Assembly: GCF_024972755.1 (NCBI RefSeq)
Contig: NZ_CP087724.1
Span: forward strand, 2,418,001-2,482,000
DNA length: 64,000 nucleotides
Source of the DNA: Halanaeroarchaeum sp. HSR-CO
Lineage (GTDB): Archaea; Halobacteriota; Halobacteria; Halobacteriales; Halobacteriaceae
Direction: 5' to 3'
Shown: one piece after another, positions 6,104 to 60,658 of the stretch
Layout: each line of letters begins with the position of its first letter
Numbering within the stretch: position 1 is the stretch's first letter
Made by a program: the position numbers and the translations under genes
Notes under the pieces: generated by a model
Told to the model about the DNA's origin: nothing
Databases searched by the model: none
Seen by the model: the letters and a program-made list of their open reading frames with translations, nothing else

Positions 6104-6533
6104 TGGGCCAGTGCGGATTTTGAACCACGGTCGTTCCGCTCCGCTTCACTCCCTGATTCAAATCCGCACCCATTTTCTCTGAGTGACTGCGCCGAGCGAT
6201 AGTAACGCTCGGCGCGTTTGTGAGAGAAAAATTGGCCAGTGCGGATTTGAACCGGAGCCAGACGGTCCGGGTCGCTCGTTTCACTCGCTTCCCGGGCTGC
6301 GACTGGCAGGGCTCAAATCCGTGGCCGCTTCTCGGAGGGAGCGAGCGACGACAGGGCGTCGTCGCTCGCGGAGAATGAGAAGTGGGCCAGTGCGGATTTG
6401 AACCGGAGCCAGACGGTCCGGGTCGCTCGTTTCACTCGCTTCCCGGGCTGCGACTGGCAGGGCTCAAATCCGTGGCCGCTTCTCGGAGGGAGCGAGCGAC
6501 GACAGGGCGTCGTCGCTCGCGGAGAATGAGAAG
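6104..6533 (-). repeat. Tandem array of tRNA-Ile 3'-end 'echo' hairpin units
   Basis: Three units lie directly downstream of tRNA-Ile: A (6104-6231, 128 bp, diverged), B (6232-6382) and C (6383-6533). B and C are each 151 bp and identical except at their first few bases. In tRNA sense each unit has two parts. First comes a spacer hairpin that abuts the preceding tRNA end; in C, CTTCTC pairs with GAGAAG around an 11-bp inner stem. Then comes a long hairpin whose left arm, CGGATTTGAGCC, is the complement of the tRNA T-arm and whose right arm is an exact copy of the last 22 nt of tRNA-Ile. No coding potential is seen. Confidence 0.9.
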
Positions 6534-19172: not shown

Positions 19173-19273
19173 TGCGAGGGAAGGGATTCGAACCACGGTC
19201 ACAAATCGGAGATTTGTTCCCTGATTCGAATCCTTCCGTCTCGTTTCACTCCTCACTTCGTTCGTCGTGAAAC
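19173..19273 (-). repeat. Single tRNA-Leu 3'-end 'echo' hairpin unit
   Basis: A 101-bp unit directly downstream of tRNA-Leu. It ends with an exact copy of the last 22 nt of that tRNA (complement at 19173-19194). In tRNA sense a spacer hairpin (GTTTCAC / GTGAAAC) abuts the mature tRNA. Then GGAAGGATTCGAATCA pairs with the echo TGGTTCGAATCCCTTCC, with one bulge. The loop holds a further ACAAATC-TCC-GATTTGT hairpin. Confidence 0.85.
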
Positions 19274-60006: not shown

Positions 60007-60137
60007 CCGCACCAACCCGCACTTCTACTGGAGATCGAATCGTACCGCAGTGTTGCGATTTCCACTCGAACTAGGGGGGTGGGGGTTGCTGCCGACACTG
60101 CAATGGGTCGATCGGTACAATGCAGCGGGTGAGCCAG

Positions 60138-60587
60138 ATGGGGCACAAATACCGTTGCTCGTTTTTCTCGCAGGCCGCTCGAAAAACTGCGCCGGCCAGG
60201 ATTCCCGTGAGCGACCGTCAGGGAGCGAGGGGGACGCCGTTGGGCTTTGCCCAACGAAAATTGAACCAAAATCAGACGTGCTCACTTCGTTGCGCGCGTC
60301 TGATAGGGCTCAATTCCCTCTGCTCGTTTCCCTCACCCGTATGCTCGCGATGGCGCAGCCATCGCTCGCGGAAAGGGTTCGGAAAACTGCGCCGGCCGGG
60401 ATTCCCGCGAGCGACCGTCAGGGAGCGAGGGGGAAGTCGGGCGGCGCACGACCGAAGGGAGTGCGCCGGCCGGGAATTGAACCAGAGCCAGACGGTCCTG
60501 CTCACCTCGCTTCGCTCGGCTGCGCGGGCTGCGACTGGCAGGGCTCAATTCCCTGTGCTCGTTTTTCTCGCAGGCCGCTCGAGAAAC
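60138..60587 (-). repeat. Array of tRNA-Gly 3'-end 'echo' hairpin units
   Basis: Downstream of tRNA-Gly. Echoes of the tRNA 3' end begin at 60188 (partial, 13 nt), 60388 (partial) and 60462 (full 22 nt). The two partial copies are exactly 200 bp apart. The newest unit (60462-60587, 126 bp) has the same core as the tRNA-Ile units B and C but with a Gly-matched T-arm (GGGAATTGAGCC against GGTTCAATTCCC). An older core lies at 60261-60317. A spacer hairpin (TTTCTCG / CGAGAAA) abuts the tRNA. Confidence 0.85.
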
Positions 60588-60658
60588 TGCGCCGGCCGGG
60601 AATTGAACCCGGGCTATGAGCTTGGGAAGCTCATGTCCTACCACTAGACCACCGGCGC
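60588..60658 (-). tRNA. tRNA-Gly (CCC anticodon)
   Basis: A 71-nt cloverleaf. Acceptor GCGCCGG pairs with CCGGCGC and the discriminator is A. The anticodon stem-loop TGAGC-TTCCCAA-GCTCA gives CCC. T-arm CCGGG-TTCAATT-CCCGG. No encoded CCA, no intron. Upstream TATA-like GAAATAGC on the minus strand. The 3' side carries the echo array. Confidence 0.97.

Follow-up and report, generated by a model that had tools for sequence, protein, structure and literature searches.

Why should the gene for tRNA-Gly(CCC) be followed, on its own strand, by an array of hairpins whose arms repeat the T-arm of that same tRNA? The locus lies near one end of a stretch of 64,000 nucleotides, referred to here as the window, in which a first-pass annotation had described the same hairpin core behind tRNA-Ile and behind tRNA-Gly, with flanking arms that differ according to the host tRNA. 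The two halves of this core are indeed exact at three units. The half GAGCCCTGCCAGTCGCAGCC occurs three times in the window, always on the minus strand (6295-6314, 6446-6465, and 60527-60546), and not once in 100 shuffles, while the half GGACCGTCTGGCTC is found at the same three units (6255-6268, 6406-6419, and 60485-60498). The arms had also been read correctly, as CGGATTTGA/TTCAAATCCG behind tRNA-Ile and GGGAATTGA/TTCAATTCCC behind tRNA-Gly, and they match the T-loops of the respective hosts (TTCAAATCC in tRNA-Ile and TTCAATTCC in tRNA-Gly). The description of a common core holds for the outer 20 and 14 nt, which are identical at the Ile and Gly loci, and fails for the inner stem-loop, which is not.

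On the tRNA strand, a unit has the layout X–h–X'–c–X, where X directly repeats the tRNA 3' end, X' is the T-arm in inverted form, and the letters h and c denote two hairpin modules. The right arm at tRNA-Gly is the start of a full tRNA 3' end copy (GGTTCAATTCCCGGCCGGCGCA, 60462-60483). Of the units behind tRNA-Gly, one is intact, another has a right arm that has decayed, and a third is truncated; a different type of hairpin is present twice. These features, and the other units in the window, are as follows; each was placed from the sequence unless a program or model is named, and any further support is given in brackets.

60588..60658, minus strand: tRNA-Gly(CCC), the host, with T-loop TTCAATTCC (ARAGORN and Rfam RF00005).
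60554..60587, minus strand: h module of Gly unit 1, a short hairpin with the motif CGAGCGGCCTGCGAG.
60545..60553, minus strand: X' of Gly unit 1, the inverted T-arm GGGAATTGA, or left arm (host match tested).
60484..60544, minus strand: type B core c of Gly unit 1, GCCCTGCCAGTCGCAGCC ... GGACCGTCTGGCTCT (DNA fold -20.1 kcal/mol, z -2.6; type B relatives exist).
60462..60483, minus strand: X, the direct tRNA-Gly 3' end copy, or right arm (direct repeat, 1 mismatch in 24).
60388..60461, minus strand: type D hairpin of the Gly array, ending in the shorter tail copy GGGAATCCCGGCCGGCGCA (similar units behind other tRNAs).
60254..60387, minus strand: second Gly unit with an intact core, comprising h (60319-60387), X' (60310-60318), core (60268-60309; CCCTATCAGACGCG...CACGTCTGATTTT), and a decayed X (60254-60267).
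60120..60253, minus strand: another type D copy (to 60188), then a truncated unit whose h is that of Gly unit 1.
6383..6532, minus strand: unit 1 of tRNA-Ile(GAT), comprising h, X' (6464-6472), type B core (6405-6463), and X (6383-6404) (DNA fold z -3.7).
6232..6382, minus strand: unit 2 of tRNA-Ile, a tandem copy of unit 1 at 151-bp spacing.
6104..6231, minus strand: unit 3 of tRNA-Ile, with a type A core and an X that has one extra base (TTCAAAATCC) (covariance model 45 bits).
19173..19273, minus strand: unit of tRNA-Leu(TAA), with a type A core and arms GGATTCGAA/TTCGAATCC (covariance model 64 bits; DNA fold z -5.4).

Two type A units had been overlooked in the first-pass annotation: the one behind tRNA-Leu (core 19190-19229) and the third of those that follow tRNA-Ile (core 6122-6161). 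Type D, with its shorter tail, is a further hairpin type; its copies in the Gly array (60388-60461 and 60188-60253) have a CGCGGGA/TCCCGC-like stem, and it is present behind tRNA-Arg and other tRNAs too.

The Gly array is one case of a far larger pattern. We examined the flanks of 44 tRNA genes, i.e., the 43 Rfam tRNAs of the 2.79-Mb haloarchaeal genome and its intron-bearing tRNA-Trp. A parser that required X', core, and X placed 44 units at 25 of the 44 genes, on the same strand as the tRNA, and because hand reading adds more, both counts are lower bounds. The richest array, that of tRNA-Gly(TCC), has seven near-identical units; in other arrays the core types are mixed. Three core types dominate: A (TCAGGGA...GACCGTGG), B (CCCTGCCAGTCGCAGC...GACCGTCTGGCTCCGG, the one first noted), and C (GACCGAGGTTCTGCG...CGCAGGTTCTCGGGCGT). 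The strict type A core pattern was found in 35 of 98 relatives, representing 22 of 41 genera, with no occurrence of the reversed pattern, and it is present in 50 of 81 genomes inside the order and in 0 of 312 elsewhere in the phylum. The covariance model has matches in 42 of 59 relatives and 15 in the source genome, all of the latter, where placed, at tRNA genes or at one tRNA copy. Of the 127 matches that fall in named genomes, 114 lie 35–382 bp downstream of a tRNA on the same strand (16 amino-acid types), and the remaining 13 are mostly truncated by the end of the fetched locus or lie next to a tRNA 3' fragment. The proposed link between core and tRNA is therefore borne out, the core not being found mostly away from tRNA genes. 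All 114 tRNA-linked cores are on the strand of their tRNA, and no inverted core is present among them.

Filled and empty sites both occur, and units come and go between congeners: occupancy differs at 12 of 44 tRNA pairs, and the number of copies ranges from 0 to 7 per tRNA. One genus of the same family (G005, G011, G014, G016-G025) is nearly without type A (strict pattern 0, model 0-3 matches per genome), whereas its sister genera are rich in it. In the congener G001, no hairpin unit follows three of the tRNAs (Thr, Thr, and Cys; L212, L217, and L240), and these share another downstream sequence, TAATATTTTGTTCAGAGNCAGGTTT. An extra base inside the T-loop of the right tail copy (TCACAATCC, TCAACATCC), as at 6104-6126 of the window, was seen in 14 of 114 by a strict count, in several genera and at several tRNAs (L124, L132, L137, L141, L142, L186, L196, L199, and others); it would represent either an extrahelical base in the arm or a copy disabled as a target. 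A search against Rfam returned only tRNAs at the gathering score, with nothing of note at E values up to 5 and no rtT homology. Plasmid and phage collections gave no match to one Ile array, and viral contigs gave one core match. That contig, from IMG/VR, carries a tRNA gene and then a type A unit (L203:13740-13918), and might be either the edge of a provirus or a vehicle for the units.

Both arms follow the host tRNA, as had been proposed. Over 8 T-loop positions the left arm is exact in 85 and the right arm in 83 of 114, where permutation of the hosts gives an expectation of 32 and 28, respectively (maxima 47 and 43 in 10,000 permutations). With agreement on the left and on the right far above that for shuffled hosts, the proposal of one element family, tied to tRNA genes and host-matched on two sides, is upheld. 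The two arms are not equivalent. Mismatches over 12 positions come to 1.2 for the right arm and 2.2 for the left, compared with about 3.7 when permuted; the right arm reproduces the tail almost exactly over a long stretch, and the left is exact mainly over the T-loop. At four tRNAs (LysTTT, ArgCCT, ArgTCT, and LeuTAG) the T-loop differs between two congeners, and in all four both arms match the new form; at LysTTT the core is unchanged despite the altered T-loop and arms. At one tRNA-Leu (L145), where the tRNA departs from the arms, the two arms still match one another. Two observations are signs of later adjustment of the arms. At the outermost T-stem position where the kinds of copy differ, the X' base is one that can pair with X only by wobble in 25 cases and the base of a true inverted copy in 10, and at tRNA-Ser(CGA) two sister units share one core, one unit having a foreign X' base and the other the matched base. 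X' also extends weakly into the acceptor complement (9.2 versus 7.9 permuted). The possibility that X' is a direct copy, made of the 5' strand of the T-stem and a flipped loop, was compared with an inverted-copy origin and rejected because upstream of the stem the resemblance is to the complement of the acceptor, rather than to what precedes the tRNA itself, although both effects are small.

The right hairpin, X'-c-X, is held paired by compensatory changes. In the type A alignment (n=31), 95.5% of cells are paired, double-sided changes are present in 8 of 18 pairs, and covariation is 0.260 compared with 0.118 when shuffled, while sliding the alignment by one column reduces pairing to less than 46%. 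The inner type A hairpins include 40 distinct 13-mers, each with 5 bp and a 3-nt loop, and their wobble pairs (12 G·T versus 3 A·C) are skewed toward the tRNA-sense strand. Within the type A core, neither a T·G pair nor a bulged G varies, and mismatches are likewise kept. Because A-C mismatches in the arms are not rare relative to G-T, the choice of strand rests mainly on the core. A strand-specific motif also marks the h module, YGARC-N-GYGAG being present in 57 of 90 left spacers outside the Gly unit (shuffled mean 0.4; opposite strand 0). An archaeal bulge-helix-bulge intron was also considered and rejected by eye, since the arms pair without the two 3-nt bulges.

The three core families are present at many different tRNAs, each with that tRNA's own arms. 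The type C core is nearly invariant, yet it occupies five tRNAs of the source genome (Trp, Asp, Met, LeuTAG, and LeuGAG), and is found elsewhere at tRNA-Val in two other families and at Val, Ser, and Arg tRNAs in other genera. In 36 pairs of units from one genome that have a similar core at different tRNAs, h was common to 0 of 36, and four pairs at the same tRNA have a common h and a different core. We had entertained the movement of h, X', and c as one unit, and abandoned it because units at different tRNAs with a common core never had a common h. Since h and c reassort, the unit may not move as one piece; and as the core, but not h, is common across tRNAs, either the core is exchanged inside resident arms or it inserts with new arms, the data being compatible with both. 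A duplicate of tRNA-Arg(CCG) and its promoter region (L282:720-830; G000:C1:443019-443129) has a type A hairpin inside the T-arm (GCGG-GATTTGAATCAGGGG...GACCGTG-GTTCAAATCC), and a similar duplicate in a congener has no hairpin. The duplicate with the hairpin is either a bare insertion or a deletion derivative.

Units are also found at the end of a protein gene. In Natronorubrum texcoconense, at least three units follow a small protein gene ending in TATCGGTTCGAACCGGTCTGA, an end that happens to read GGTTCGAACC, and their arms copy the gene end. Among relatives, the same gene has units in one other genome, an apparent remnant in one, and an empty end in most. The protein target has a T-arm-like dyad, and as CCGGTTCGAACCGG is itself palindromic, this case supports a target rule better than it supports inverted copying. 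Tail duplications measure about 22 bp at tRNAs and 15-19 bp at the protein gene, and do not obviously correspond to one fixed target duplication.

To our judgment the chances are about even that these arrays represent an order-wide haloarchaeal family of small hairpin insertion units that target the T-loop, duplicate the target tail, and keep the inner arm complementary. As part of that whole reading, the units would be about 85-150 bp in size and would land at GGTTCRA, nearly always in the 3' part of a tRNA gene. Each unit is situated between two direct copies of X, and the tRNA therefore stays intact. We infer that a recombinase or nuclease acting in trans might recognise the unit in its folded single-stranded form and cut at the T-loop, and that insertion would duplicate the target tail. 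The left arm would be brought into register and held there by a pairing constraint and local correction, and arrays could grow by further insertion, by tandem duplication, and by exchange of h and c modules between units. It counts against an insertion family that neither a recombinase nor an excised form nor a fresh insertion was observed, and that no integrase gene above the cut-off in the source genome lies beside an array. A narrower version is doubtful in our view, namely that a hairpin without genes, as a new kind of mobile element, enters T-loop sequences in the form of a folded single strand, with the target tail copied to its right and an inverted copy acquired on its left, so that each insertion rewrites both arms to the new target.

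Other readings account for parts of these data. A structured RNA tail, selected in cis for tRNA 3' processing or transcription termination, would be consistent with the location on the tRNA's strand, the compensatory pairing, and the wobble bias to the sense strand. However, the presence of units varies among orthologous tRNAs, as does copy number, units follow a protein gene end too, no Rfam family corresponds to them, and the inner loops are mostly 3 nt. Loops of this size are more expected of DNA hairpins than of selected RNA, and a cis-selected tail appears very unlikely. The units might instead be remnants of integrative elements, or stand-alone att sites, left by T-arm-using tyrosine integrases, with h and X'-c as the fused arms of attP. 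Direct tail repeats at tRNA genes, which are the usual att signature (PMC8371274), are present behind many tRNAs, the tRNA being restored, and the non-tRNA target has the dyad of a T-arm. Three displaced type A units (L118, L146, and L179) adjoin haloarchaeal integrase-like reading frames, as judged by eye, and two of them (L118 and L146) are beside a tRNA 3' fragment. An integrated circle would carry its own fixed attP tail, but here both tail copies are target-derived even where one core occupies different tRNAs. Moreover, the tRNA-linked core matches lie within 382 bp of the tRNA, no gene-bearing version was seen, and neither an integrase gene nor a fixed attP core accompanies them. With just one core match in viral contigs, and none to the Ile array in plasmids and phages, an origin as att remnants seems quite unlikely.

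The first-pass annotation had favoured fold-back replication or template switching that copies both arms at insertion, a mechanism that we find unsupported as stated. In its fuller form, a polymerase stalled at the tRNA gene would snap back on h, copy the tail into X', jump at the T-loop through the core, and return to recopy the tail, after which quasipalindrome correction would keep the arms matched. Template switching creates and maintains hairpins (PMC8794818) and homogenises the arms of inverted repeats (PMC8604942). Such a process would explain why the arms on both sides match the host and differ jointly between congeners, and why X' extends weakly into the acceptor complement. In contrast, cores are common across tRNAs and families, and are therefore not locally made, and the mismatches and bulge of the type A core are invariant although correction would remove them. 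The left arm is the less exact of the two, the outer stem position of X' is more often a wobble base than a true complement, and neither the reassortment of core and h nor the tRNA-Ser(CGA) sister units are as expected. Switching between arms would also invert the spacer (PMC8604942), and the tRNA-linked cores are all in one orientation; neither an exact inverted left arm nor a spacer in both orientations was found. Fold-back copying is a possible origin of X', while as an explanation of the whole pattern it is unlikely.

The insertion family that we prefer has partial counterparts among known systems. The rtT repeats behind tyrT of E. coli are reportedly about 178 bp long, restricted to one locus, and each provided with a copy of the tRNA 3' end. 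They resemble the present units as tandem repeats behind a tRNA gene that contain such a copy, but are said to be without the inverted T-arm, the exchangeable hairpin cores, and the genome-wide and order-wide spread. The likeness to integron attC sites, and to the folded attP of the CTX phage, is one of working: inverted repeats that are imperfect and act in folded single-stranded form, an extrahelical base, a variable terminal loop, and arrays of small units. The invariant bulge and T-G wobble, the covarying inner stem, and the wobble bias are features of an attC-type hairpin in this sense only. Unlike attC and CTX attP, the present units have no genes, their arms vary with the target, and the R' box GTTRRRY is absent, the boundary reading GTTCRAA with C in fourth place. 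Nor is there an adjoining integron integrase, since seven integrase genes exceed the cut-off in the source genome and none adjoins a tRNA array when their positions are compared with the tRNA list. IS200/IS605-type hairpin ends, REP elements, and haloarchaeal PATEs likewise have strand-specific bulged hairpins and a short guide-like foot sequence that pairs with the flank, whereas the present units duplicate the target tail, their flank is a tRNA 3' end, and no transposase-derived ends were recognised. Elements with tRNA-targeted tyrosine integrases share the repeated segment from T-loop to tRNA 3' end and leave the tRNA intact, but the present units are about 100 bp, gene-free, and have both tail copies following the target. 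The mobile hairpin repeats of mitochondria (RHE, PMC2800124; double-hairpin elements) are similar as small dispersed hairpins with variable loops, whose mobility was inferred by comparison. Unlike the present units, these are not restricted to tRNA tails. To our knowledge, they do not have host-matched arms. MITEs are defined by constant terminal inverted repeats, and here the arms vary with the host and h and c reassort.

A search of the open literature turned up no earlier account of such hairpin units at tRNA tails, and these gene-free units point to a tRNA-targeting insertion family that is apparently undescribed. For annotation they are a hazard, as their tail copies mimic att sites and tRNA fragments. 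While tRNA genes are classic docking sites for mobile DNA, gene-free hairpin units at more than half of the tRNA genes of one genome appear undescribed. They form a natural library of several hundred sites, from which the target rule, the matching of arms, and the exchange of modules are directly readable, and with them single-strand hairpin recombination, or alternatively template switching, becomes open to test in archaea.
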